Source: Medicago truncatula (lineage: Eukaryota > Streptophyta > Magnoliopsida > Fabales > Fabaceae). From it: a stretch of 64,000 bases of DNA. A model generated the notes under the pieces. The model was not told the origin of the DNA. It was given only the letters and a program-made list of their open reading frames with translations, and made no database searches. The stretch covers positions 9,920,001 to 9,984,000 of the forward strand of contig NC_053049.1 of assembly GCF_003473485.1 (NCBI RefSeq). The letters run 5' to 3'. Both the position numbers and the translations under genes were made by a program. Below are positions 14,000 to 34,608 of the stretch, in pieces. Position 1 is the stretch's first letter. The number at the start of each line of letters is the position of its first letter.

Positions 14000-14233
14000 G
14001 GGTGTGTTTGGATTGAAGGTTTAGGAGGAGAAAGGAGGGAAGAATTCACTTTTATATTTTAAATTACGAACAATGTAAAATATTTTTTTCAAAATAAATT
14101 AAGTATTTTTGAAATATTATATGATCATTTATCATGTTGTTAATTCAATTTTTTTAAAATCATTTTATAATGTCCAAATTTTAAAAAAGAAAAGTAAACC
14201 CTCCCCTCCTAAATTCTCCATCCAAACATACCC
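14000..14233. mobile_element. Tourist-like MITE (PIF/Harbinger type)
   Basis: The ends GGGTGTGTTTGGATTGAAGG and the inverse CTCCATCCAAACATACCC form terminal inverted repeats with AGGAGGAGAAAGGAGGG opposing CCCTCCCCTCCT. The element is 234 bp and flanked by TAA at 13997-13999 and 14234-14236, the 3-bp TWA duplication of Harbinger-type elements. A relative with similar ends lies at 63392-63950. Confidence 0.8.
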
Positions 14234-15388
14234 TAAAGGAATAATTTTTGGTTGGTCATAACCATAAAATTTGATCACACACACCTATAAAAAAAAAACA
14301 TCAGTTAGTTATTTTAATAAAAAGAAAAAAATGATTCTTCTCCTTTTACCTCTTTTCTTCTATTTATGCGAGTATGTTTAGATAATTTAGATTTTGTAAC
14401 CACTTGCGAGTTAAGGACATTTGTTAAGCAACTTAACATAATATTAGTAGTATTTTATTGAAGATTGTATAATCAACTTGTTAAAAGTTCGATTATCCTC
14501 TTTTGAACATAAAACTTTTCTTTTTATGTTTCATAGCAAATCTTCTTATGATACTTGTTAGCATGACTTCTTCTTTTTTCAAAGTAGTCTAAAATTAAAA
14601 TATTTGGATTTTTTTCCAACAACGATTAAAAAATATTTGGTTACACACAAATTTATTCAAAATTTAGTGATAATATTAAAATTATCCTGTCCATATACAT
14701 TTTCTAAAAACTTTTTTCATCTCTCGCATAAATTTTCATGGATATGTGACTAATAGGAGAGAATATGGATATTGAAAATTTAATTTCAAAACTGAGATAT
14801 TTGTATCTTTTCAAGGTGTAACAAGTTTTTTAAAGGACGTGATTAGACAAATTTAAATATTTCGTAGTGAAAATGTGAAATTATTTTGATATAAGTGAAT
14901 TTGTTGAAGTGTAATTTCTACATTTATGCTTCTATAGAAATATTCATTTATATGTAACATTCTTAAGTAGATGCACCCGAAGTAATCTTTAAGATCATGA
15001 AAGTAATCCAAGAAACCATAAAGTTAACAAACCTAATTTAAATTTATTGATTGATCGTAAGATTAAAAATATAGGTAAATTCTAGGTTGCATTTGAAAAA
15101 TTGTAAGTAAATTACACACAACTGTTTAAAACCAGTCGCATGAATTCTACTAACCAGTCACATAAACATTGTGATTGTGAAGCAGAATTCGTTTGCAATG
15201 AAAATATGAGGAAGAAGAAGTAGCATGGTTAGAAAGAAATAGAAGGGGGACTTTTCAGTGCGTTTTTTTTTATAAAGAGATGTGAGAATGAATTGAAAAA
15301 GTTATAGAGAGAAAAGTATGTTTAACCCGTGCCCCGGGGGCACCGGTTAGCAGGACCCAACTTTAAATGAGTAAAAGAGTATAAGAGA
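14234..15388. other. Intergenic DNA with a GC-rich near-palindrome
   Basis: Mostly AT-rich and featureless. At 15329-15343 GTGCCCCGGGGGCAC is a perfect inverted repeat around one G, standing out in this AT-rich context just before the duplicated U1 segment begins. Confidence 0.45.
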
Positions 15389-15615
15389 TGAGGAATGTGT
15401 TGAACGTGCAATATTCATTGAATCCTTTAATTACTTGTATAAAGTACTTGAAAGTTGAATCCCTTAATTAATTACATGTTGGTTGTGATACATTCTGAAT
15501 AGAGGTTTTGACAGCAAATCTTTGTCTACCAAACCCAGATCTCACCCTTTGAGATCAAAGAGGTTAGTCTCTAGCCTAGCTTTGAGAGTTGGTAGCTTTA
15601 GTCTAAAGAAGAACA

Positions 15616-16214
15616 TGTTGGAATATTTTATTATTTAATAATATTTCAATATGATTATGTGGGTAAATATTGTAATAATAATTATATTAGTTATTTATCA
15701 ATTGTGAGTCTTAATTGATTAGTGATCAAATTAAGTAATAAAGCTAATTAGATTTCTATTTTGGATAATTAATTATTTAATTTATTGATATGGACTCAAC
15801 ATGAGTGGATATCCGGATGACCCATTAACGGAATAATGGGAAACCTAATGGCCATCCAAATAAAAGAGGCTATGGTCCCCAATACACCGTACACGACAAA
15901 CTCTCTTCTCCCCATCTGAAGAGAACTTGAGGCATAAAGGTACCGATTGAGGAAGAACCAAATCAGCCGCCGCTAAATCTATTGTGTGTTTCAGATCATC
16001 TCCTCTCTTTGGTTATCGTTGTTGATTAGAGGGCTGCTATGAAAGCTTTATCCAGGTATTCCTAATACCCTAATTCTTAATATCCTTGATAAATCAAACA
16101 TGTCGTAGATCCGATCATAATCATATTCAATGTTTTGTTTGCTTCCGCTATTGATTCATAATTGTTGAACATGTTTTATGAAATCTGTTTTTATTAAGAC
16201 CTAAATTTCCAACA
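15616..16214. mobile_element. Solo LTR of an LTR retrotransposon, probably Ty1/copia-like
   Basis: A 599-bp unit begins TGTTGGAATATTTTATT and ends CTAAATTTCCAACA, the TG...CA form of LTR ends. It is flanked by the 5-bp duplication GAACA (15611-15615 and 16215-16219). No internal region is present, so it is a solo LTR left by recombination between LTRs. The sister segment near 25.86 kb lacks it. The perfect duplication suggests it is not very old. Family assignment is tentative. Confidence 0.88.
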
Positions 16215-16374
16215 GAACATAGCTTAGTTCAGCCAAAAACAGTATGCAGGAAAGACTATAGAAGATGAAGAATATATTTCCTTGGAGAATTCAATCTATG
16301 TATTATAGTGTCATGCCCTTTACAATCAATAATTGGAAAACGATGAAATTACACATCAAGCACATCATACATAA

Positions 16375-17504
16375 TTGGTACTAGCTTTTGGAAGGATAGA
16401 TGGGTTGGGGGAGCACCCCTCTACTTGTCATTCCCTAGACTTTTCGTTCTATCAAATCAAAAGGAGGCCAAGGTGGGGGAGGTTCAAGATGGGGGGTGTG
16501 AGTGGAATATTACGTGGCGGAGGGATCCGTTTTTGTGGGAGCTTGAACTTATCCATAATTTGATGGTTTTGTTGGAGGAGGTAGCTTTTGGAGGCGAGGA
16601 AGATAAGTGGGTGTGGACTCCGGAGGAGGACGGTTCTTTTTCGGTCAAACCAACTTATTCCATTTTGGAAAATCTCTTCCTTGTGGTAGACGATGTGAGT
16701 GCTATTTATGAGGGGGTTTTCTCCTCGATTTGGAAGAGTCCGGCTCCTTCCAAAGTAGTCACATTCTATTGGTCCCTACTTCTTGATCGTATTCCTACGA
16801 AGGATAATCTTGCATCTCGACATACCTTGGATTCGGGTGTGTCCTTACTTTGTGTTTGTGTGGAAGGTGTGTTGAGACTTCTACCCATCTCTTCTTGCAT
16901 TGTGATGTCTCCTCTTTAATTTGGCGTGGTATTTTAAATTGGCTCGGGATGAATTTTATTACCCCTCATAATTTGTTTGCGCATTTTGAGTGTTGGAATA
17001 ATGAGGTGGTCTCGAGAAGGCTTAGGAAAGGTTTTTTGTTGATTTGGCATGCCACTATTTGGTTGATTTGGATGGAAAGAAATGCACGGATTTTCAATCA
17101 CAAAGAGAAGGATGTTGGGGAGTTAGTGGATGAGATTGAAGCGGTGTCTTGGGTGTGGATGTTGAGCAGACTAAAGATAGCATCGTTCCTCTTTTATGAG
17201 TGGACTTGGAACCCTAGACAGTGCCTAAATAGAAGATGAAAGGTGCTGGCTTTTTTGGATCTGCTGCAGAGGCTTGAGTGGCTCGGTTTTATCCATTCTA
17301 TGTGCAGGTGGTTTTTATTGTTTAGGCTATAGGAAAGGTAATTATATAGTTTGTTTTTTGCCTTTTCCTGTGGCTGTTTTTGGCTGTGCTAGTACTGTTT
17401 TACTGCTGGTTTCTGTCGAACAGTTGGCTTCCTGCTGTTGTTTTTGCTGTAGCCATTTTGCACTTCTGGTGCGTGGTGTTATAATATTATGCCGATTAAA
17501 AAAA
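16375..17504 (+). mobile_element. 5'-truncated LINE with 17-bp target-site duplication
   Basis: The plus strand encodes the C-terminal zinc-binding RVT region of a LINE from a family different from the other two: EEDKWVWTPEEDGSFSVK, then DRIPTKDNLASRH, CVETSTHLFLHCDV and IWLIWMERNARIF. The frame shifts once near 16850, at the CXC segment between two open stretches (16425-16919 and 16850-17239). About 265 bp of 3' UTR ends in an A-run at 17498-17506. AAGCACATCATACATAA lies on both sides (16358-16374 and 17505-17521). The related sequence near 25.96 kb has no insertion, so the LINE arrived after the segmental duplication. Confidence 0.92.
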
Positions 17505-17956
17505 AAGCACATCATACATAAGTCAGATGCTATGAAGCACAGACTCACACAGAGACATTAGACAGACACGTCGACATCGATAATAATTTAAGAAAATGAT
17601 ATAATTCAATATAATCATATGTGTTGTGTTGTGTAGGCGTTGGATATGATATATATCGACACTGAGAGACGCCTAATCCGAAACGTATATCTACTTCATA
17701 GGTCAGATGTGAGGAGGAAACGATCAAACGACACATCATGCATATCATTCATGATTTATCTGTATGTTAACCAGCAAGATATTGATCATATATAGCACCT
17801 TGTATGTTCAAAGATACATTTACAAGAATTTGATATCACAGAAGCAACCTGTTCATAGTCATTTACCGTTGCTGGGGAAGAGCTTCGTTTGGTAATACAC
17901 AGATAAAATACGTGATACTTTAGTTAGTTAACCAAATTCATTATAGCTTATTATTT

Positions 17957-17967
17957 GTCCCACATCG
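17957..17967 (+). promoter_or_regulatory. USE of U1 snRNA gene A
   Basis: GTCCCACATCG is the plant snRNA upstream sequence element. It is 33 bp from the TATA box TATAAATA at 18001-18008, the spacing known for RNA polymerase II snRNA genes in plants. Confidence 0.93.
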
Positions 17968-18032
17968 CTCAGACTTAACATGCGTGAATGTTGAGGGAAA
18001 TATAAATAAAGAGCTATTTGCAACATTGCAAT

Positions 18033-18190
18033 ATACTTACCTGGATGGGGTCAATGGATGATCATGAAGGTCCATGGCCTAGGTTGGTGACCTCCATTGC
18101 ACTTCGGAGGGGTGCCTATCTAAGGTGTTCTCAAGTAGAACAGCCTACATCATAGTTTGTTGCTGTGGGGGCCTGCGTTCGCGCGGCCCC
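18033..18190 (+). ncRNA. U1: U1 spliceosomal snRNA gene, copy A
   Basis: The RNA begins ATACTTACCTGG, which pairs with 5' splice sites, 32 nt after the start of the TATA box. Loop I (GATCATGAAGG, U1-70K site) and loop II (ATTGCACT, U1A site) are intact. The 3' hairpin GGGGCCTGCGTTCGCGCGGCCCC closes with a TTCG loop. The Sm site reads AGTTTGTTG, whereas copies B and C have AATTTGTTG, so Sm assembly might be weaker. With USE, TATA and 3' box all in place, transcription is plausible. Confidence 0.9.
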
Positions 18191-18193
18191 TTC

Positions 18194-18207
18194 CAATAAT
18201 AGTTTAA
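18194..18207 (+). terminator. 3'-end box of U1 gene A
   Basis: CAATAATAGTTTAA fits the plant snRNA 3' box CA(N3-10)AGTNNAA just after the 3' hairpin. Confidence 0.8.
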
Positions 18208-18507
18208 TTATTTTTTTAAGAAACATTAATCATGGTTTTGCAAAAATATTTTCCAATTGCTTCAGCTGATCCGACAATCAATAAAATGAAAAAAAAAATA
18301 TTTAAGTTGATTTTTTTTTTTAAGAAGTTAAATTTGCCTTATTATGTGACATTTAGCCACAACTAGCATCACAAACTTAGTTTCCAAACAACTTGCCCCA
18401 AAATTCAATTAAAATTGTTGTACAAAGAAAACATTCATGATTTAGTAAGATGAGACAATTCATTACATTCAAACAAAAATGCAATTAAATATGAACACCA
18501 ATATCAC

Positions 18508-18722
18508 CTAGCGTCAGCATCTGCATCTCGCAAGTAAGCAATCAACGCATCGAGTGCCTTCTCATCTCTTGCACATGCGTCTGTTTTTTTTTTTTTTAAA
18601 TGACCTACCAAATTATAAATTCAAACACACAAAATGCAAAAACCTAACTAACCAAAAAGAGGAACACTAACTAACCAAATTGACGGATGCGAGGGTCTTT
18701 GAAGAAGATAAGCTAACCCACC
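18508..18722 (-). pseudogene. MOR1/XMAP215-like fragment, N-terminal exons
   Basis: Exon-like stretch 18580-18508 has an AG acceptor and a GT donor and reads RDEKALDALIAYLRDADADA, close to VQEKALDALIAFLRAADSDA in the first TOG domain of plant MOR1. About 100 bp further (near 18720-18676) is SSSKDPRIRQFG, matching TDPKDPRLRDFG just upstream in the same domain, ending at a GTTAGT donor. The start codon and remaining TOG exons are missing. MOR1 is a large microtubule-binding protein; this piece alone cannot make it. It lies about 300 bp beyond U1-A. Confidence 0.7.
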
Positions 18723-19074
18723 CAAATTGGTCGTGGAGAGAATGAAACATGAGACGAGGAGCACACTTCAAGGTCCCAAACCAATACCATTAGACCAACC
18801 CAAGTGGATTTATAATCGGAATATTTAAAAACTCAAAGTCCATGTGTTTTGACATTAAATTATTGTAATTTCCGTTTCAAAACTTTTTGAATTTTAAAAT
18901 AGTCCAAACAAAAGTAACATGTTTCATATTATAAATCTGAAATATGTATAAGTAACACTCAGAAATTACCAGTTCGATGATCACCGTCAAACATGCTCAT
19001 TTCAGAACATTAGCTTATACTCAGACTGAATCAGATATGGACCTCATAGGTTTCGATATCTGCTGGAGCGAGTG
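18723..19074. other. Intergenic DNA between MOR1 fragment and copia remnant
   Basis: Nothing recognised except that the LTR of the copia remnant starts at its right edge. Confidence 0.4.
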
Positions 19075-19535
19075 TTGTGTTATGTAAAAGTGTATTCTCA
19101 TTATTGAATTATGGTTTGATACAAAGCTCCTATATATAGCAAACTGAGTACACAACAAACTGAGTTACTTGAGAGCTAAGTAACTTCCACAACTAACTTC
19201 TAACTAACTTGTAACAAGCATATCCTAACAATTACTCTCCTAAACTGAACCTTATGACAAACAAATTTAGTTTACAGACATATATCACAAAGAATTAAGA
19301 CATTTCACAGATGCCTAGTTTCTCCCTCAATTTGCAAAAGGTTTCCAGCTTCAAAAGCCAAGTCATAATATCTGCAATCTGTTCCTGAGTACTCTCACCA
19401 CTCCTTCTTCTGTAAGATCTCTGAGAAAGTGGTATCTCACATCTATATGTTTGCATCTCCCATGCATCACTGGGTTTTTAGACAGTTTGATAGAGGAACT
19501 ATTATCACATAGTATAACTGTGCACTCAATATGGT
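19075..19535 (-). mobile_element. Ty1/copia remnant: LTR plus 3' end of pol
   Basis: A short LTR (19075-19230, TGTTGTGTTATG to TATCCTAACA in plus orientation) adjoins a purine-rich tract. The C-terminal RNase H part of a copia polyprotein is readable on the minus strand (for example NPVMHGRCKHIDVRYHFL). Only the 3' end remains; the element is broken, with several breaks, and looks old. Confidence 0.75.
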
Positions 19536-19769
19536 AACAAAGTTGAGTCTGGATGCCTTAGTTGCTTATAGGCGTGCTGAAAATGATGTATGTAACTTTC
19601 TTGGTCGACCATTGAGTTGTCCTCTAACTGGTCTATTCCCATGTAATCTTTATTCGAAAAATGTAATTGAGGGGAGGATATTTTTGGACTGCGTATTACA
19701 AACAAATTTGCAGCTCAAACATATTTCTTTCTCCCGATATTGTTGGTCCATCCTTCTCCAAATCTTCCT

Positions 19770-20010
19770 AATATGGAATTGATGTCGCCTTCATCTTCAG
19801 CAATGAGGAGGAGCAATCATCCTTTACAGTGATGTCCTTGAGAGAACCTTTCGTCGCAGTTAAAACAAAGCCCCTTTTCACGACGTTCAGTGAGTTCCGC
19901 TTTGGAAATTTGCCAGAATCTGGGTTCCGTTGCTGGAGTAGAGAGGAGCGCTGGTGTTGGTCGAATTCCGGTCTTGTTTTGACGCGGAGATGGTGGCGTC
20001 CATGGTTGGA
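19770..20010 (-). mobile_element. Ty3/gypsy gag remnant (zinc knuckle)
   Basis: The minus strand shows a CCHC zinc-knuckle segment (GLCFNCDERFSQGHHCKG) typical of the gag region of plant Ty3/gypsy elements. Only this internal fragment was seen, without LTRs. It is broken. Confidence 0.6.
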
Positions 20011-20327
20011 TATTTAAACATGATACATGCAGCTAACAAAATTGGATATTTAAACATCATTGTCTATGGTCTTAACTTGGAAAATCAATGAACGTACTTG
20101 TTTTACTCTTTAATATGCAGGGTACTTTGGGAATGAAAACATAGCATTCTTCAAATTTTAGTGCTTATAATTTGTTTTGCAAAAGCTAAATGAATTGTAT
20201 TAATTCAATACACAAGAAGTGAATAAGTGTATAGTCATTTACCATTGCTGAGGGAAAAGATTCGTTAGGTAGCACACATGAATCAGAGGTTTTAGTTTAG
20301 TTAACCAAGTTCATTATAGCACCATTT

Positions 20328-20338
20328 GTCCCACATCG
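20328..20338 (+). promoter_or_regulatory. USE of U1 snRNA gene B
   Basis: GTCCCACATCG, 33 bp before TATAAATA at 20372-20379: the same geometry as copies A and C. Confidence 0.93.
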
Positions 20339-20403
20339 CTCGGATTTCACATGTGGCAGTGTTGAGGGGAATATAAATAAAGAGGTATTTGCATCATTGT
20401 AAC

Positions 20404-20561
20404 ATACTTACCTGGATGGGGTCAATGGATGATCATGAAGGTCTATGGCCTAGGTTGGTGACCTCCATTGCACTTTGGAGGGGTGCCTACCTAAGGTGTT
20501 CTCAAGTAGAACAACCTACATCATAATTTGTTGCTGTGGGGGCCTGCGTTCGCGCGGCCCT
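20404..20561 (+). ncRNA. U1: U1 spliceosomal snRNA gene, copy B
   Basis: It begins ATACTTACCTGG 32 nt after the TATA start. Loop I GATCATGAAGG, loop II ATTGCACT and Sm site AATTTGTTG are intact. The 3' hairpin is GGGGGCCTGCG-TTCG-CGCGGCCC. With USE, TATA, Sm site and 3' box all matching consensus, this is the copy most likely to be functional. Confidence 0.93.
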
Positions 20562-20565
20562 CTTC

Positions 20566-20579
20566 CAATAATAGTTTAA
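20566..20579 (+). terminator. 3'-end box of U1 gene B
   Basis: CAATAATAGTTTAA fits CA(N3-10)AGTNNAA after the U1 3' hairpin. Confidence 0.8.
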
Positions 20580-20584
20580 TTTTT

Positions 20585-21915
20585 TTTTTTGAGGTATTGT
20601 ATTGTTTTTAAAGAGCATGAAATACCTTGCTCAAGAGAATTTAGAAATTTTTGTTATACTCATTTACATCTCTAATTGTGGATGAAATCATTTTTTTAGT
20701 GATTAATTGTTATTATATTTGTTAAAAGTGACAGTATTTCAAATGTTAAAAATAAATTCAATTACTGATTTTTTTTAGATTCAAGTTAATATATTTAAAT
20801 TATCAACAGTTAGCAAATTTATGATTTTTAAAATTAAGTAATTAATATTTTTACATTTAAAATATTAATAAATGTGTCAAATAATAATTTAATTTGAATA
20901 CATCATTGACTGTGTAAATTTATTAGACATGCATCCATAATTTGATTGGATGCATGTGCAATGTTACTGTTAGTACAACTACATAAAAATCAATCTCATA
21001 TGATAAATTCTCATTAAATAGCTAATTTGCACTACACTGCAACATTTCTAAAGAAAAAGAAGCAGAATGCACATGTGGAAGAGAATCGTGTAATATGACC
21101 ATAAGATGGGAAAAAGGAAGTATATATGAGTTTTGGATATAAATCTAGCAATTGAGGGGTTCATTCTGATTCTCATGATTGTCCTGAATTTCTTGATATC
21201 AGCCTCCAACGGTTCCTTTTCTGGTGAAGACTTTGGAGCTTCAGCTAGGCAGTACACAATCCCTTATACCTGGCCCAATTCGTAATCTGCTCCTTTAGAG
21301 ATTGGTACTACGGAATTGAAATATGCACGAAGAAACTAAATGACGGCTTCAGCTCAGCAGCATATTCTTCTTTTTTATTTGAACGGTGTATCGTCTTCAA
21401 AAACTTAAAAAAGAAAAAGACAAGGCACAACAGCCAAATGCATATACTTCAAGCAGCCACAAACTAAATAAAAGACAAACAAAACAGCAGAAAAGATTTA
21501 TTCGACAGAGTGAGTTACCAATTTTGGCTATACTTTTTAAAGGAGTAAAATATAAGTATAGATCTAAACTTAGGTCCACATTGCTCATTCTCCATCAAAT
21601 TGACAAAAACGATTTTAAGTCTGTACAATATTTTCATGTTGAGCACTAGCATTAAAGACTGTCTAAGGGTCCAAACCGCATTATGACATCTGAATGCACA
21701 AATCTCTGGTAAATATTTAAAAACAAAAATACATAACATATACAAATATCACATCTTAAAAAGAAAAATGGAAATACGGATAAAATAAAAAAGACGTAGA
21801 GAATGAAGATACGAAGAAAAAAGAATTAGAATGCTCGTGGATTGCCACACATTATGGCAATGTCCGGTGAGCATAAAAAGGATGTTCTCAATGCACTGAA
21901 AATTCAGATATCTAC
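20585..21915. other. Intergenic DNA with an unrecognised possible exon pair
   Basis: AT-rich up to about 21.0 kb. Around 21180-21345 the minus strand gives SVVPISKGADYELGQ before a GTATAA donor-like site, and EAPKSSPEKEPLEADIKKF after it. These look protein-like but I do not recognise them, and they do not match the MOR1 segment expected next. The rest holds nothing recognisable. Confidence 0.4.
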
Positions 21916-22421
21916 CTTATTCTGCGGCTTGGCTTTGCTGTTCCCGTAACATTTACAACTTCTGCTTCCCACTCTTTTTTCTACAGAAAGAAAGAGAGAG
22001 AATTGGATACATTACAATTTACATTAGGAGGAGAATATAACAAATCAATCACTAAGAAGACCAGATAAGCCTACCATTGTGTCTCTCATTTTCTCAAATA
22101 AGATTGATTTTACATTATCTTTACAGACCTAGCGACAAAGTTCAAGAGTCAACCATTTAGAGGATGCACTGACATTTTGATCTTGGTGATCAAAGAGTTC
22201 CGGAAGAACCTTCAAAATTCTTTTTGGGGGCACGATTTTAGCTCCAAATTCACTAGCAGTATGAAGACAGATAATTATATCATTATATGAGAGCAACAAA
22301 ACAGACACAGCTAGTATAGATTTTGCAACGCAATTCCAAACCTTAAAGCTTGAAACATAACATCTATTGCAGGCACCACCGCTTTAGCAAATTTTTTCTT
22401 TATCACTTTCTCCATTGCATC
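21916..22421 (-). pseudogene. MOR1/XMAP215-like fragment, three exons with an in-frame stop
   Basis: Three consecutive exons with GT-AG borders and matching phases: 22421-22342 (DAMEKVIKKKFAKAVVPAID...), 22252-22075 (EFGAKIVPPKRILKVLPELF... to ILFEKMRDTM) and 21980-21916 (KEWEAEVVNVTGTAKPSRRI). They match plant MOR1 TOG1 through the following linker almost residue for residue. In the middle exon the Trp of the conserved LCRWIGKD is a TAG stop. No further MOR1 exons were found on either side, so this is a decayed fragment. MOR1 organises cortical microtubules. The order relative to the N-terminal fragment at 18.5 kb is reversed, so the two come from separate copies. Confidence 0.85.
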
Positions 22422-23329
22422 CTAAAATCACCAAAACCTTAATAAAGAAATGGTCAAAAAACATGACTAGTAGATGCGAAGTTATTGATGTGTAAACTAA
22501 ATCCCAAAGAACCTTAAGAAAAAGAGAATTCACCATATCAAAAATATTATGAACCAAAACAAGGAAAATAGAAAACACTAAAACAGGGCTAAATGAAAGC
22601 ATAAGATATATAGTTTTGACGAAAAGAATTGCCTTATCAGTCGGGGCAATGGAAAACAGGACTAATTGAATTCAGAAGTTTCATAGACTCATAAATATGC
22701 AACAGAAAGTGAGCTGTATTTCTGCGTGTTCCAATATAATCAGGGCTCTACAATAGACTTTCATCAAAAAGAAATTTCACATGCCATACCATTACTCTGG
22801 ACAATCAAACATCAACAATATCCATCCACTACCGTCTCACCTTTTCCATTTCTAGGTTCTACAAACTCAATTCCTAAACTTGCATCAGTTTACAACCTCT
22901 AGATTTTGAGCAAAATTACAGAATAAAGCAAATGCAGCCGTAAATGTCAAAATATTTACAGACCACAATATGCAATACATAGTACAGATTTTGCAAAAAC
23001 CCACTACCAGAGGCCAATCACTCAATTCAAAAACCCACTATCATCAATTTTGAGACAACTATATATTGGTTAGAAACAAATCTTTTAGTACTAAGAATTT
23101 CAGAGTTGGAAATCGAGATATACTAGATTATGAAATTCATTGGAGATATATTTCATAAGCTATTGAATTAGTATAGTTCAATCAAGTACTTACTAAGTTT
23201 TTGCAGCTATATATTTTCTTGTCTAATGTAAATGACAGTAAAGTGTAGTTATTAAAACACCAAGCTAACAAGACAACCTTTGTTGATAGTGCAACAACTC
23301 ACAAAGTAAAGTAATATGAAATGAGGGAA
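22422..23329. other. Intergenic DNA upstream of the MOR1 fragment
   Basis: Probably former intron sequence of the MOR1-like copy. No earlier MOR1 exons could be found here and nothing else is recognised. Confidence 0.4.
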
Positions 23330-23885
23330 AAGTGTATTCATCTTATTCAATGTTTAAATCTGAAGTACAATTGACATATACACACACATTGTTATGGTAC
23401 TGCTAAGCTACATTGTACTACACTTATTGTCCTACATTCAGATAACTTGTACTGCAAGTTATTGATCAAAACTATCTCTCTTAGTCTTATTTAGCTCATG
23501 GTGTAATATCCCCCCACATGTTGGAGGCTGGTAGATATCTATCATCCCCAACTTGGATAGCAAATTGTTGAATGGTTGTGGAAGCAAAGCTTTGGTGAAA
23601 AAGTCTGCAACTTGATCTTTGGATGAGACTGATAGTAACTTGAGGATGTTGGCTTGAAGTTTCTCTCTTACAATATGGAAGTCTATCTCCAAGTGCTTTG
23701 TACGCTAATGAAAGACAGGATTGGCAGCTATGCGGATTGCACCCTGATTATCAGAATAAATGACAGGAACTTTGGGACAATTGATTTGCAAATCCTTGAA
23801 TACATATAAGATCCATTGGAGTTCACAGGAAGCTGCAGATGCACAGAGATAACTTGCTTGGCAAGGAAGATGATTTCATTCCTAT
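23330..23885 (-). mobile_element. Ty1/copia remnant: end of pol and part of the 3' LTR
   Basis: The minus strand carries the RNase H to C-terminal end of a copia polyprotein (for example SSKDQVADFFTKALLPQPF and YQPPTCGGI). LTR-like sequence follows to about 23330. It is a different family from the remnant at 19.1 kb. It is broken, with at least one break in the visible part; no 5' half is present. Confidence 0.85.
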
Positions 23886-24780
23886 TTACAGATTACAGAA
23901 AACGATCTTGTTAAAATAATTCTTCTGCTTAGAAAAAGAATAAAAAATCTTACAAAGAAACAAATGAATGTGTTTGTGTATATATTTATGCCATTGCTCC
24001 TTCATGATGATGGCTCTTCTTGTTTCATTCTTAGCTTTGCTTTAACTTCATATGCAATTCCAGGAATTTCTCACCATCCTTGGTGATAATAGGAACATGG
24101 AATTTTTTTATATGTGCTAGCATATAGTTGATAGTTCTAACTCAAAATAATAATTTAGAAAATGTTATGTTATCTTGAAGAAAATCATTTTCCTTATAGT
24201 AACATGCCAAAATCTGCTATATGTTGGCACATACCCTTGTAACTTGAAATAACCTCAGTTAGAGAATGTAATCCATCTATCTATTAAAACAGACTCTTGA
24301 TCTCAGCAAAAATCTTATGTGGCACTTCACAAAACATTTTATCCCTTTGTTTCATTCCATTGTATTATATTTCATTCTATATACTTGTATCTATTGTGAG
24401 TGTTTGTAACCTATATTTATTTATTACCACTAATTGTCTCTACGTTTATTTTCTATTCTTTTACAAATTGTATCTAGATTACTCCATAACCCACAGTCTA
24501 CAAATTTTTCTACCGTTACCTAACCCTTAATTATGTTTCCATTCAATTTGACCCCACCACAAACAAGCTTAATCTGAAATCTCATACACATTTTCCTTCT
24601 ACTTCTACTTCTACAAAACAAATATATCTTTTTTGTTCAATATGACTATAGTGGATTTCTAGAGAAAGAAGTCGCCACATCCCTCAAATAAATAATTTGT
24701 AGGGTATCGATAACTAAAAGAAAGACAATATAAGGGAAGAAAACAATAGACTTGAATAAAAATCGCAAAAATATGATTTA
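23886..24780. other. Intergenic DNA before the tRNA genes
   Basis: AT-rich. A minus-strand stretch near 24095-24030 reads VPIITKDGEKFLELHMKL, but no gene context was found. The T-run just 3' of the tRNA-Asp gene (A's near 24764-24773 on the plus strand) can serve as its Pol III terminator. Confidence 0.4.
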
Positions 24781-24852
24781 CGCCGTTGCCGGGGATCGAA
24801 CCCGGGTCACCCGCGTGACAGGCGGGAATACTTACCACTATACTACAACGAC
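24781..24852 (-). tRNA. tRNA-Asp (anticodon GTC)
   Basis: The 72-nt gene GTCGTTGTAGTATAGTGG...ends GGCAACGGCG. The cloverleaf has loop CTGTCAC with anticodon GTC, a B box GGTTCGATCCC and a discriminator G. CAA lies immediately upstream (ATCAACAAG) and T-runs downstream, as usual for plant Pol III tRNA genes. Confidence 0.95.
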
Positions 24853-24962
24853 TTGTTGATCCTTGAAAGAAATTAACAATACATCTCCCTAAACGATGGT
24901 TGAATATAAAAACACAAGTTATATATTTGTTTAAAGGACCTGCAGGACAAAAAAAATATTGT

Positions 24963-25047
24963 TGGGGTGAGAGAGGCTCGAACTCTCGACCTCAGGATCA
25001 CTCAGAAGCTATGAGACCTACGCGCTAGCCAACTGCGCCACCACCCC
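24963..25047 (-). tRNA. Elongator tRNA-Met (anticodon CAT) with an 11-nt intron
   Basis: The gene starts GGGGTGGTGGCGCAGTTGG and ends CCTCTCTCACCCCA. After the anticodon CAT and the next A, the 11 nt GCTTCTGAGTG interrupt the anticodon loop; removing them gives CTCATAATCCTGAG, the normal plant elongator Met sequence. Introns in tRNA-Met and tRNA-Tyr are typical of plant nuclear genomes. A T8 terminator follows. Confidence 0.95.
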
Positions 25048-25655
25048 AATGATGTTTTTGTTCAATGTCAGAGAACTCATCGGTTAAAACGATTTAATCT
25101 GGTGTTGTACTTATTGCTCTTATTTTTTATTTTATTTTTTGACAAAATGTTATGCTCTTAATTAAGAAGGGGTAAGTGAGTAATAATCCATGAGTACCAG
25201 GCTTAATGCTTTTAACCTGGGAAAAAAGCTCTTCTCTCAACAAGTTTTGCTCATTTCCAACCAAACTTTCGAAAAAGCCCCTGACGTGGGTTAACTCACA
25301 CATGTGTTAATCCTGCGCGAGTTAGCTCACGCTGCGTGTTGTTTTCAAGGCCAGGCAGAACCTCATTTTCTCATTTTCCATCTAAAATAGAAGAAAGACT
25401 AATGATTGATACCAACACAGCCACTATTCTCAAGAGTTTCTGATTTACCTATCCATTGTTGTGTGTCTTGCAATATCACTTGGACTATCATGCTATTTTG
25501 GATAACACTTACAATTGCTCATCATCTTGGCACTTCAATTTCCAACCATTTTTGTACCGGTACAAAAACATTTAGTTGTGCACTATAAATGTCACCCTAT
25601 TTGTATAACCATGTTGTTATAAACACAGTACTAAAATACTAATTTTACTAAGGTA
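25048..25655. other. Intergenic DNA
   Basis: No gene, RNA or mobile element recognised between the tRNA genes and the duplicated segment C. Confidence 0.4.
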
Positions 25656-26375
25656 TGAGGAGTATGTTGAACGTGCAATATTCCTGGAGTCCCTTAATTA
25701 CTTATATAAAGTGCATGAATCCCTTAATTACATGTTGGTTGTATACATTCTGAATAGAGGTTATGACAGCAAATCTTTGTCTGCCAACCCCTGCCCACAC
25801 CCTTTGAGATCAAAGAGGTTAGTCACTAGTCTAGCTTTGAGAGTTGGTGGCCTTAGTAAAGACTATAGAAGATGAAGAATAAATTTCCTTGGAGAATCCA
25901 ATCTATGAATTAGTGTCTTGCCCTTTACAATCAATAACTGGAAAATGATGAAATTACACATCTTACATAAATCAGATGCTATCAAGCACAAACTCAGACA
26001 CAGACACAGACACGACACAGACACGTCGACATCGATAATAGTTTGAGAAAAAATGTTGTGTCGGTGTCAGACATGATACATATCCGACACCAGGAGACGC
26101 CTTATCCGAAGAGTATATTTGCTTCATAGGTTAGATGTAAGGAGGAAACGACACATCATGCATATCATACATGATTTATCTATATGCCAACCAGTAAGAT
26201 ATTGATCATATATAGAACCTTGTATGTTCAAAGATACATTTACGAGAATTTGATATCACAGAAGTAATCTGTTCATAATCATTTACTGTTTCCAAGGAAA
26301 GAGTTTCGTTTGGTAACACAAATAAAATATGTGAGACTTTAGTTAGTTATCCAAGTTCATTATAGCGTATTATTT

Positions 26376-26386
26376 GTCCCACATCG
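26376..26386 (+). promoter_or_regulatory. USE of U1 snRNA gene C
   Basis: GTCCCACATCG, 33 bp before TATAAATA at 26420-26427. Confidence 0.93.
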
Positions 26387-26451
26387 CTCAAATTTCACAT
26401 GTGGGAGTGTTGAGGGGATTATAAATAAAGAGGTATTTGCATCATTATAAA

Positions 26452-26614
26452 ATACTTACCTGGATGGGGTCAATGGACGATCATGAAGGTCTATGGCCTA
26501 GGTTGGTGACCTCCATTGCACTTTGGAGGGGTGTCTGCCTAAGGTGTTCTCAAGTAGAACAGCAGCCTACATTATAATTTGTTGCTGTGGGGGCCTGCGT
26601 TCGCGTGGCCCCCC
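26452..26614 (+). ncRNA. U1: U1 spliceosomal snRNA gene, copy C (possibly defective)
   Basis: It begins ATACTTACCTGG at the expected 32 nt from the TATA start. Loop I, loop II and Sm site AATTTGTTG are intact. Two differences from A and B: a 3-nt insertion (CAGCAGCC for CAGCC) in the stem III region, and a C-to-T change in the 3' hairpin (GCGTGG), giving a G-U pair. No CA...AGTNNAA 3' box follows (TTCTGCTAGAGATTTT instead), so 3'-end formation may fail. Confidence 0.88.
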
Positions 26615-26640
26615 TTCTGCTAGAGATTTTTTTATTTTTA

Positions 26641-27275
26641 TCTTGTAGCTTCGCTTTCCTCCATAATTAAAAGATAGAAAATCCTATTATAATGTGGTAA
26701 AGATAGAAAATCCTTCCATTAATAAATTAGATAAACATACTTAGTTAAATATAACTTTATTTTTACAACAAATATCATAGACATGGATGCTCATGTAACA
26801 TTATTCAAAAAAAAAAAAAAAAAAGATAATTTAATAGAAGCATTTTAATCTCTGTCCTCAAAGTTCTGTTGAAAACCCTCAAGCTAGCTCTATCCATTTA
26901 CCCTTAATGTATGATATGTATGTTCACCCACAACGATTCTGCTCTGCATCCTCAAGTTTTATTCACTAAATTCTTCCTATCTAACCCTCAATATCATTTT
27001 GTTAAAAGGTACGTGCAAATGCAAATCAATAAAAATTATCATTGTCTATTTATAACAAAAACATATCAGTGAATTCTACTAAACCGTTTTAGTCAACTTA
27101 GAAATGAGTATTATTTATTGAATAATCGTTAGAACTTATTTTGGACTATTGCTGCAAAACTTGAACAAAAAGAAGATAATGATGAAGCATAAAAGTTTCA
27201 AAACGTGTGTCGACACACTTAAGTTTTAGTTCCGATTAGCACCCACTAGTTTATGTCAACCTGATGCAAATGGAT
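26641..27275. other. Intergenic DNA
   Basis: AT-rich, with an A-run at 26808-26824. Nothing recognised. Confidence 0.4.
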
Positions 27276-27283
27276 ATGCTAGT

Positions 27284-27652
27284 CAGGGGCCGTTTTTTTG
27301 GGAGTGCAAAGAGCTCAACCGAGCTGGATCTCCTAAAGTGATGGGCCTCAAGAAAAAAATCATTGCTCAATATCCCCACCCCCACTCAAAAAGAAAACTA
27401 AACATGTTTCATGTTTCAATTTCTAAGTAAAAAAATCAGATTCCATGTTTCTATTTTTAAGTTAAAAAAGCACATCTTTAGTAAAAATAATTGGTAATTT
27501 TGATTTTGGTGGTTAATAATCATTATACGAGTGTTATTTTCAATTTAAATAGAAGATTAATCTTTTAAAAAAATTGTGTTTTTTTTTTTTTTTAATTAGG
27601 GACCTATTTTTACTACGAGAGCCGAGCCTCTAGTTTTGTAGGGACGACCCTG
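27284..27652. mobile_element. Non-autonomous hAT-type element with 8-bp target-site duplication
   Basis: It starts CAGGGGCCGTTTTTTTGGGA and ends GTAGGGACGACCCTG; the ends are short inverted repeats (CAGGG). ATGCTAGT flanks it at 27276-27283 and 27653-27660. The 369-bp body has no coding capacity. An 8-bp duplication with CAGGG ends is the hAT signature. Confidence 0.88.
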
Positions 27653-27660
27653 ATGCTAGT

Positions 27661-28460
27661 GAATATCCATCAGGATACTTTAAAAAGTATCCTTGATCGT
27701 GAGTTCGTGAGTTGAATATTCACACCAAGGATCAATTATAGTTCACAATATAAAGTTCTCTCATTTACTCTCGTGCCTTAAAAAAAGAATAAATGATTAA
27801 CTTAGAATTATTTTCGCAGAATTTTGATTCAAAAAATATGATTTCTGTGTCTATTTTCTACTTTTTTCCATGTCTATTTTCATATGATTAATTTAGAAGT
27901 ACATTCAACAATGGTTACAACGAACAGTTAATTAGTAATAACGTTCACAGTTATTCATAATAGTTGCAATGGTTTGTTGATAGGTGCTTGTCCTCTTTCC
28001 CTCCATACAAAAATTTACATACGCGCGCACACGCACACTCACACTTTTTTCTTTTTGTGTAACTTAAATAAATAGATAATCCTCAGTTGATCCTTTGATT
28101 CATATGATCTCCCTCTTTCATTTTTCCATCAAAATTCTTAAGTTCCTTTCTCATTTCATTTCCTACATCTCTTACACAAAAACGCCATTTCTTAATCCCA
28201 CTGACAATAACTTTACATTTTTGTCTGCTTCAAAAAAACTTTACATTTTTGTCTGTTAATTTAATATTTTTGTTTTTGTCCGTTTATTTAATTTATTTAA
28301 CAAACAAAATTTTAAAAATGTAGAAAGTTGTTTTCGAACTTACAACTTCTCATTAAGGGCAAACAAACACAACAACCATAACAATATATATCGGTAATAA
28401 CCTCTTCAACATCATTTCTCAAAAATAAAAACCTCTTCAACATCATAACAATATATAGAT
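27661..28460. other. 3' flank of subtilase copy 1, partly duplicated
   Basis: The part from about 27995 resembles 32440-32900 (for example CGCGCACACGCACACTCACAC, and TTTAACAAACAAAATTTTAAAAATG against TTTAACAAACAAATTTTAAAAATT). The duplication unit therefore included downstream DNA. Confidence 0.6.
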
Positions 28461-29884
28461 TTAGGATTTAAATTTGAGGGTGGTGACCACAACAGGACTC
28501 CTAACCACATGACTCACATCCATCCAAGTTAGATATCCGAAATCCAATTTCTTTAATCTTGTCATGCTTCCAACTTCATTCCTCAACTTAAATCTTAGCT
28601 TCTCATTCTTCTCATGGAACACCAACTTGTTTGGGATAACACTGACATGAAACCCTTTGATAGGAGTAATGTTGGCAACATAAACTGTTTATGCCTCACC
28701 AACATTGGTCACTGTTTTGTGGAACTCTTGTATTCTCCTCCAAGAAGAATTTCCACCATTGAAGAAAGCAATAAAAAAAGGGTGGTTAATATCCAATGAA
28801 GGTTTAGAGCAATCATTGAATGTGGATCTTGTAATGGTAGTGATATGTTTCTGTGTGAAGTTAAGTCCATAGAGAAGATTAACATAATCTTGTGCACCAA
28901 CGTCATAAAGAAGACCGGGGTCAAGCGCTCTAGTAGTATCAACATAACTAGCTCCTAATGCAAGAGGAGTTGCAACTTTGTTACCTTCTCCGATGTCTTT
29001 GATATGTTCCTTAGCATTATCAAATATGGTTGATGTTGTCATAATTGCTGACCTTATAGCTGCAGGGTCCAATCAGCATGTGCTCCTTTCAAAAGTGCTC
29101 CAACACCAGCAACATGAGGGCATGTCATAAACGTTCCACGCAATGTTGTCAAAATCGCGATCTAGATCCCAAGATCGTACGATCTTGCGAGTCATGATGC
29201 CTCCACCGATCTGGAGCGGATCCAAGATCAGAGAAGATGAAGGAGCGGCCGGCGCGCCGCGTAAACACGTTGAATCGGCGATTTTTTTCGCGTCTGGGAA
29301 AGTGGCTGATTCGGGTGCGACCCGTCTGACCCGACCTGTTCGGATTTGACCCGATTTTTTTAAATACGAGCCCAACCCCATTCTGGCCGGGAACGACCCG
29401 TTTTCCACTCTAAAAGGCCAAATTCACTCATTAATTTCAGTTTTGGGACTTGTTAGTGTTTAATTCAATAATTAGGTTAGTAAATTGGGAATTTCTTTAA
29501 AATTTTGAATTTTTTTCATCTTTTGTGAAATTGTAATTCTTCAATTATCATCAATTCCCTTTCATCTTTTATAAATTTCTCTTGCTTGTGCTTCCTCTTG
29601 AATAAGTTTTTTATTTTTTATTTTTATGATGTTTAGGATGATGCTTTGTTTTGTATCAATGTTTTTAGATGTTTAAGATAATGAGAATTATGATTAATAT
29701 AAGTTTTTTTTAAAGGTTATTTTTCTTAGTTTTTTTTATAATTCTGTCTATTATATGGGATCTTACGATCCCTGTTACGATCCTACGATCTACGCTTTTT
29801 CTATACCTCAACGATCTCTAGTGGGATCTCGATTTTGATAACCTTGGTTCCACGTAAAACATTAAACTAAGTAAGGAAATACTT
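28461..29884 (-). pseudogene. Subtilisin-like protease pseudogene, copy 1 (C-terminal half, split by a hAT element)
   Basis: Plant subtilases (S8 family) are secreted serine proteases. The minus strand reads CPHVAGVGALLKGAHADW, then PAAIRSAIMTTSTIFDN, ATPLALGASYVDTTRALDPG, QDYVNLLYGLNFTQK, the Fn3-like domain (FHKTVTNVGE, ANITPIKGFHVSVIPNK) and a natural stop at 28461. Defects: a one-codon-scale frame shift before PAAIRSA, a TAA stop after TNVGEA, and GTSMACPH read as GTFMTCPH, so the catalytic Ser is Phe. The N-terminal half (Asp and His of the triad) is absent. A 706-bp hAT element interrupts the catalytic motif. Confidence 0.88.
29141..29846. mobile_element. Non-autonomous hAT-type element inserted in subtilase pseudogene
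   Basis: The ends CAATGTTGTCAAAATCGCGA and (inverse) CAAGGTTATCAAAATCGAGA form imperfect terminal inverted repeats. They are rich in GATC/CGATC words, as in known plant hAT MITEs. GTTCCACG is duplicated at 29133-29140 and 29847-29854. No transposase is seen; a 111-codon open frame inside is not similar to anything known to me. Confidence 0.9.
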
Positions 29885-31262: not shown

Positions 31263-32090
31263 TGTGTTATATGTGCTCGTGTGTGATTATTCATCATTGG
31301 GTGTATTTTCATGGGTTTCCGTGTTAGAAGGGTATTTTAGTCATTTTGGACTTTTGTTATGTTTGGAGATTACCCTTATGTTGGGATTTTTGAGATGCAT
31401 CTATGTTGATGTAATTATTGATTCATGACATGTATATTTGGATTACTCTGGTTTATATTCTGCTACTGTTGAGGTTTATATACATGCTTATTGGTTTTGA
31501 ATTTTGGATGATGGCGTAGCCTCTATTTCTTGAATAAATGTATTATTCGCATGTTTAATTGCTTTAATAGAAATAGGAGTGTTACAAGTTGGTATCAGAG
31601 TCATGGTCAGTTGTGTCTAGACTAATACTTGTTGTATTTCCCTGTTGTGTGCGAGTGGTAGCATAGTACCTTCGACATTTGCTTTGTTGTGTTGTTTTCT
31701 TATCAGTGAGTTGGTTGTGTAGTGCTGAGATGGCAGGTGGTAGAGACGATGCGGCAATTGCACAAGCTTTAGCGACTATGGCACAAGTGTTGGCCCAGTC
31801 GAATGAGAATGCGGTGGCTAACCGTAGAAATGAAGGTGAGGCCGAAGAGAGGAGGCTCGATAGGTTCTTGAGGAACAATCCACCGACTTTCAAAGGGAGG
31901 TTCGATCCAAAGGGAGTACAGACTTGGGTGCAGGGTATGGAACAGATTTTCCGCTGCTACTGTTGAGGTTTATATACATGCTTATTGGTTTTGAATTTTG
32001 GATGATGACGTAGCCTTTATTTCTTGAATAAATGTATTATTCGCATGTTTAATTGCTTTAATAGAAATAGGAGTGTTACAAGTTGGTATC
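31263..32090 (+). mobile_element. Ty3/gypsy remnant: LTR, primer-binding site, gag start, second LTR end
   Basis: An LTR (about 31263-31586, ending GGAGTGTTACA) is followed by TTGGTATCAGAG (31589-31600), the usual primer-binding site complementary to initiator tRNA-Met. A gag start (MAGGRDDAAIAQALATMAQV) and the beginning of a gag domain (PTFKGRFDPKGVQTW) follow. From 31960 to 32090 the last part of the LTR and the beginning of the primer site appear again. Everything from mid-gag to the 3' end is missing; the element is broken. The two LTR-end copies are very similar, so the rearrangement may be recent relative to the element. Confidence 0.85.
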
Positions 32091-33509: not shown

Positions 33510-33696
33510 AGTAACGTTAGCAACACTCTCTTTGAACACTCTCTTAAATACTCATTATCTTATTGGTTTAAATCATTGTGGGTTTACACTTTGAAAATTG
33601 AACTCACACAAAGTGGTGGGACATGCATTGATTTCATCCAATAAAAAAATGAGTGCTAGAGAGAGTGTTGAAAAGTAAATGTTACTAGCATTTCTC
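33510..33696. mobile_element. Short MITE, copy 1 of 2
   Basis: Inverted ends: GTTAGCAACACTCTCTTTGA at the left against AGAGAGAGTGTTGAAAAGTA...ACTAGCATTTCTC at the right. The core carries TTATTGGTTTAAATCA and AAAGTGGTGGGACA. A second copy in the same orientation lies 0.9 kb away. About 185 bp, non-coding. Confidence 0.75.
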
Positions 33697-34432: not shown

Positions 34433-34608
34433 GAGTAGTGCTAACAACACTATCTCAAACACTCACTTTTTTATTGGTTTAAATCAAGGTGAATCTCACA
34501 CTTTGGAAATGAGTTCCACTTAAAGTGGTGGGACACACATTAATTTCATCCCATAAGAGAGTGAGTGTTAGAAAAAATGTTTAAAAGAGGGCGTTCCTAG
34601 CATTCCTC
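34433..34608. mobile_element. Short MITE, copy 2 of 2
   Basis: Same family as 33510-33696: GTGCTAACAACACTATCTCA, TTTTATTGGTTTAAATCA, AAAGTGGTGGGACACACATT and GAGTGAGTGTTAGAAAAAAT. Confidence 0.75.

Follow-up and report, generated by a model that had tools for sequence, protein, structure and literature searches.

U1 is the small nuclear RNA (snRNA) that marks the starts of introns and, as established in other species, binds the proteins U1-70K and U1A through its loops I and II. In Arabidopsis, its genes form a multi-copy family with an upstream sequence element (USE), a TATA box and the 3′ signal CA(N)3-10AGTNNAA; the ASRG survey lists 14 U1 genes, of which ten were judged active and some are likely pseudogenes, and describes small snRNA gene clusters (PMC545797). 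USE and TATA box lie four helical turns apart in genes of the RNA polymerase II (Pol II) type and one turn closer in those of the Pol III type (PMC9845283). Mutations of the 3′ box strongly lowered the activity of the cleavage complex in Arabidopsis (PMC5079582), and variant letters of the Sm site alone cause a 3′-end processing defect in human U1 (PMC10801842). Here, we describe three U1 copies in a 64-kb stretch of the Medicago truncatula genome (C8:9920001-9984000 of 430 Mb; hereafter, the window). Very likely, they are plant U1 genes in a small local group derived from segmental duplication, in which copy 2 would be normal and copies 1 and 3 are, by prediction, probably impaired.

A profile search of the window with the Rfam U1 model RF00003 (gathering score 69.5 bits) returned three copies, each covering model positions 1-166, the full length of RF00003, at 135.8-145.5 bits and thus well over the cut-off (Table 1). 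The initial annotation, which had proposed three U1 genes at these places and would have been refuted by low covariance scores, was borne out, with coordinates accurate to about one base (the third copy ends at 26615, not 26614). Its statement that the U1-70K and U1A loops are kept also proved right, loop I (GATCATGAAG) and the opening of loop II (ATTGCAC) being identical in all copies. The RNA starts with ATACTTACCTGG in each case, and the 5′ end that pairs with the splice site, ACUUACCUG, is common to all three and to 25 of the 31 over-cut-off copies in the genome. Missed at that stage were the altered Sm site of copy 1 and, in copy 3, the lack of a 3′ box together with a 3-nucleotide (nt) insertion, leaving copy 2 as the sole window copy that is canonical across all features tested.

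Table 1. Positions in the window of the three U1 copies, their signals and the duplicated segments around them
Feature	Positions	Strand	Remarks
Copy 1, USE GTCCCACATCG	17957..17967	+	exact sequence match
Copy 1, TATA box TATAAATA	18001..18008	+	33 bp 3′ of USE
Copy 1, U1 snRNA	18033..18193	+	RF00003 142.9 bits, E 2.5e-36; stem pairs broken 0/46
Copy 1, Sm site AGTTTGT	18154..18160	+	27/31 over-cut-off copies read AATTTGT
Copy 1, plant 3′ box CAATAATAGTTTAA	18194..18207	+	CA(N)3-10AGTNNAA, score 7/7
Copy 2, USE	20328..20338	+	exact GTCCCACATCG
Copy 2, TATA box	20372..20379	+	33 bp 3′ of USE
Copy 2, U1 snRNA	20404..20564	+	RF00003 145.5 bits, E 4.4e-37
Copy 2, plant 3′ box CAATAATAGTTTAA	20566..20579	+	CA(N)3-10AGTNNAA, score 7/7
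Copy 3, USE	26376..26386	+	exact GTCCCACATCG
Copy 3, TATA box	26420..26427	+	33 bp 3′ of USE
Copy 3, U1 snRNA	26452..26615	+	RF00003 135.8 bits, E 2.8e-34
Copy 3, specific 3-nt insertion CAG	26560..26562	+	3′ side of stem-loop III; placement ambiguous within CAGCAG
Copy 1, duplicated segment	17508..18190	+	83% identity, 694 columns, to 25957-26612
Copy 2, duplicated segment	20231..20589	+	88.5% identity, 366 columns, to 17855-18217
Copy 3, duplicated segment	25957..26612	+	homology ends within a few bases of the RNA 3′ end
Unit part further upstream	25649..25962	+	common to 15382-15609 and 16248-16357

With up to one mismatch allowed, GTCCCACATCG occurs three times in the window, each time exactly, against 0.19 occurrences expected from shuffles. 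In all three copies, a gap of 33 bp separates this USE from the TATA box TATAAATA, and the RNA starts 32 nt past the start of the TATA box. The spacing fits the plant Pol II rule of about four helical turns and, judged by promoter layout, the window copies are plant Pol II-type U1 snRNA genes. The identical promoter geometry stressed by the initial annotation is therefore real, but it is not distinctive: 27 of the 40 U1 matches in the genome (22 with an exact USE, five with one mismatch), and 26 of the 31 over-cut-off copies, have the same 33-bp spacing, so that the geometry represents a general rule for the U1 genes of this genome and does not mark the window locus out.

Genome-wide, where all our snRNA match counts are lower bounds, we found at least 40 U1 matches, of which at least 31 were over the cut-off and nine below; the corresponding over-cut-off counts were at least 25 of 27 for U4, 46 of 46 for U2 and 42 of 42 for U5. 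The notion of an expanded U1 locus was not supported by this comparison. A cluster on C7 (25.980-25.996 Mb) holds five over-cut-off U1 copies within 16.5 kb, plus two below the cut-off, compared with three copies here, and the window locus is thus not the largest. Both clusters consist of local U1 copies on a single strand, but the C7 cluster lacks the GTTCT/AGAAC stem of the window copies, and some of its members carry altered 5′ ends. The window genes resemble those of Arabidopsis in belonging to a multi-copy family and in their promoter and 3′ signals, with 14 U1 genes there against at least 31 over-cut-off matches here; the clusters with U1 described in the Arabidopsis survey are U1-U4 pairs 180-300 nt apart, whereas the window cluster is without U4 (PMC545797). 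A search for such a U4 partner at window positions 14000-29000 gave none, even with the threshold relaxed to E values of up to 0.1. Elsewhere, same-strand U1 and U4 matches no more than about 2 kb apart occur at three places on C5 (C5:9231381/9232351, C5:9389962/9391409, and C5:12604547 and 12607790/12606378), which resemble the Arabidopsis pairs but are wider apart; at the first of them, U4 is upstream of U1. For a plant, the window cluster is ordinary. Among the papers listed on Medicago truncatula U1 genes, on the copy number and concerted evolution of snRNAs, on U1 gene copies in plants and on snRNA variants of plants and pea, none, judged from titles, gives an account of these genes. Papers on pea U1 variants reportedly appeared around 1991.

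Folding constraints were evaluated on a structure of 46 pairs, namely Rfam's structure, placed on copy 2, with our own drawing of stem-loops III and IV. None of these pairs is broken in any window copy, as in 14 of the 31 over-cut-off copies overall. Across the 31 copies, 96.3% of cells were paired; shuffles gave 92.2% and slid controls 43-47%. Changes on both sides were seen in 17 of the 46 pairs, compared with 8.6 in shuffles (0 of 500 shuffles as high). The inner stem of stem-loop III reads GTTCT/AGAAC in eight copies, including the three in the window, and CTACC/GGTGG in 14; between the two forms, three of five pairs have changed on both sides, so that pairing is kept. The window cluster belongs to this minority U1 lineage of 8 in 31 copies. 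Among themselves, the window copies differ at 14 body positions and by one 3-nt insertion, and no change breaks a stem pair. All of the 15 inferred body changes are transitions; when these were placed at random in a simulation, all pairs stayed intact in 1.9% of cases, and the listed single-stranded sites considered essential took no more than one hit, as observed, in 14.9%.

Substitutions in the RNA body were then compared with those in the near flank (-180 to -77) on a multiple alignment by a one-sided Fisher test, leaving out the stretch from USE to RNA start, in which copies 1-2, 1-3 and 2-3 differ at 12, 13 and 6 of 76 positions, respectively. For two of the three copy pairs, change was slower in the body than in the near flank, with 8/161 versus 14/96 substitutions for copies 1-2 (P = 0.008) and 8/161 versus 22/99 for copies 2-3 (P = 3e-5); the difference is not significant in the third.

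The departures from the canonical gene concern the Sm site and the 3′ end. Copies 2 and 3 have the Sm site AATTTGT, in which copy 1 carries an A-to-G change that is unique to it among the 31 copies, three others varying at other Sm positions. In this respect, copy 1 is like U1v15 and other variant U1 genes of human, which are U1 paralogues with non-standard Sm letters; the effect of the human variants was measured in cells, whereas that of copy 1, a single base change, is predicted only (PMC10801842). Downstream of copy 3, there is no recognisable 3′ box of the form CA(N)3-10AGTNNAA: its best score, 4/7, is tied lowest of the 31 copies with two weaker ones and falls under the mean of 4.9 for 3000 random downstream stretches, 45 of which score 7 and 580 at least 6. 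Because of this best score, copy 3 is classed as a U1 copy with an incomplete gene.

These observations suggest a ranking of the three copies. The plant snRNA promoter of each copy, with its USE followed about four helical turns on by a TATA box, would direct RNA polymerase II. The RNA from copy 2 would be a normal U1 and would enter the spliceosome. Copy 1 would probably be transcribed and cleaved normally, but is predicted to load the Sm ring poorly because of its A-to-G change. Transcription of copy 3 would probably start, with poor cleavage for want of a 3′ box. Both defects are predicted by extension from human U1 and Arabidopsis snRNAs. Copy 2 is predicted to be the main contributor, and equal output from all three copies appears doubtful because copy 3 is missing its 3′ box and the Sm site of copy 1 is changed.

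Self-comparison of the window showed that the U1 copies sit inside duplicated segments. Copies 1 and 3 also share pieces further upstream, and copies 2 and 3 align over 20215-20560 and 26260-26611 with 87% identity; on the strength of these alignments, we conclude that the three copies arose by local segmental duplication. Upstream DNA in common with copies 1 and 3 is also present at C5:36380341, outside the window. The unit of copy 1 contains an extra stretch (16358-17507) that ends in a run of A, is bordered by a direct repeat of 11 to 13 bases and carries a reading frame (16347-16919) with a zf-RVT match; it looks like the insertion of a long interspersed nuclear element (LINE). In a tree of 27 U1 copies (at least 100 bits; 200 bootstrap trees), the window copies fall together with three further copies that share their type of stem III. 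Which pair is closest varies by region: copies 1 and 3 in the distal flank, 2 and 3 in the promoter, and 1 and 2 in the body by a gapped count, an ungapped recount of the body placing pairs 1-2 and 2-3 level with eight changes each.

Alternatively, all three copies might be fully functional and equivalent, adding to U1 dosage, and would then tolerate the altered Sm site and the loss of the 3′ box. The common promoter layout and 5′ ends, together with 0 of 46 pairs broken in each copy, are in line with this idea, and the exact 3′ box is absent from other copies too, the best-scoring U1 of the genome having 6/7. We nevertheless consider equivalence unlikely, as copy 1 alone of the 31 has this Sm change and the 3′ box score of copy 3 is tied lowest and under the random mean. 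Several observations do weigh against a cluster with one normal and two impaired copies. An exact 3′ box is found in just 15 of the 31 copies and a score of at least 6 in 22, so the box is not strictly kept. Folding-based accessibility of the Sm site was 0.57 in copy 1, 0.61 in copy 3 and 0.85 in copy 2, with 0.59 and 0.61 in two related copies whose site is intact; as these score alike, accessibility was rejected as a non-diagnostic test of copies 1 and 3. Single-strand folding yielded the canonical outline for copy 2 only, and folding alone fails to separate good from bad copies. The 46-pair structure, being drawn on copy 2, favors that copy's close relatives, and for one of five covariation measures, further pair types, 60 of 500 shuffles reached the observed value. 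The window trio is not firmly one group either, appearing in 44% of the bootstrap trees, and the copies form a mosaic, so that gene conversion could partly account for the slow change of the body; the comparison of gene conversion with selection covered three short copies. Finally, copies 1 and 3 differ at 12/161 body and 13/102 near-flank positions (P = 0.11; longer flank 47/405, P = 0.09). Earlier gapped, free-end pairwise counts had given P = 0.001, 0.02 and 1e-5 for pairs 1-2, 1-3 and 2-3 but undercounted body changes at the 3′ end, and the P values used here are those of the multiple-alignment recount. This lack of a significant difference for copies 1 and 3 would also suit three decaying, duplication-derived pseudogenes, none contributing U1, as would the change of a functional element in two of the three copies and the state of the family at large, in which nine of 40 matches score under the cut-off and many pairs are broken in others. 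With stems intact in all three copies, a body slower than the near flank for pairs 1-2 and 2-3, and every element tested present in copy 2, we judge such wholesale decay highly improbable.

The initial annotation had further named the locus as a candidate source of U1 sequence variants, a suggestion with weak support: the copies differ at the 14 body positions and by the 3-nt insertion, but are identical in the splice-site-reading end and the protein-binding loops. That these differences would alter splice-site choice seems extremely improbable to us: besides the shared 5′ end and the shared U1-70K and U1A loops, the inferred changes are exclusively transitions that leave every pair intact, and the copies with altered 5′ ends all lie outside the window. 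Six of the 31 copies, all outside the window, are changed at nucleotides 3-11, for instance to ATACATACCTGG (C7) and TTACATACCTGG (C5), ends that would pair differently with the 5′ splice site. Three U1 copies, L028 (C7:25990869), L033 (C5:40304743) and L040 (C5:39794218), have A for T at nucleotide 5, which might improve their pairing with 5′ splice sites that carry U at +4. L028 has an exact USE and no TATA box under the pattern used; L033 and L040 have a one-mismatch USE 33 bp from the TATA box, and L040 is below the cut-off. We likewise give very little credence to the idea that both impaired copies have been retained as working variants, with copy 1 reading splice sites but assembling weakly with Sm proteins and copy 3, because it lacks a 3′ box, giving a U1-headed transcript that runs past the normal end, with the same promoter layout also driving many uncatalogued short RNAs.

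As to that layout, an exact USE, 33 bp and TATAWA occur at 299 places in the genome, versus 14 with a spacing of 28 bp and three with 38 bp; spacings of 23 or 24 bp occur at 134 places, many of which, among those listed, represent one tandem array. One hundred of the 299 places were listed, running contig by contig from C1 into part of C3, which is not a random sample, and 11 of these lie at a known snRNA match (six U1, five U2; U4 and U5 matches were also checked). Examination of 80 of the other 89 places (L047-L126) with Rfam at the gathering cut-off left 67 without a family match and 12 not judged, and revealed one known RNA, U11, at L093. The places without a known RNA fell into 25 BLAST groups (16 single); among the groups that were aligned, similarity is higher in the promoter than 3′ of it. 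At least one place, L059, looks like a retrotransposon end by its motif. Enrichment of the 3′ box at the 80 places was not clear, with an exact box between +20 and +160 of the predicted start in 13, on the opposite strand of that stretch in 11, and in three other stretches in 4, 6 and 3. Possibly, many of these places are uncatalogued snRNA-type transcription units; among the papers listed on plant non-coding RNAs with this promoter, none, judged from titles, deals with such genes.

The window holds several further features. Two matches to the MIR5269 microRNA precursor (33563-33641, 83.6 bits; 34474-34553, 60.1 bits; cut-off 60) lie about 0.9 kb apart, both inside a 77% identical duplicate. 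On the minus strand, tRNA matches at 24781-24852 and 24963-25047 comprise a tRNA-Asp (GTC) and a second match (cata) for which ARAGORN named no amino acid, possibly an intron-containing tRNA-Met. Two 137-bp direct repeats at 31460-32090, 98.5% identical and about 360 bp apart, could be a miniature long terminal repeat (LTR) element.

Copy-specific bases make the three U1 copies separable in RNA reads. Together, these findings suggest that spread and decay of the U1 family proceed one copy at a time, with changes in the Sm site or the 3′ box arising in copies whose promoter and fold stay intact; counts based on promoters or covariance alone may therefore overstate the number of working U1 genes.

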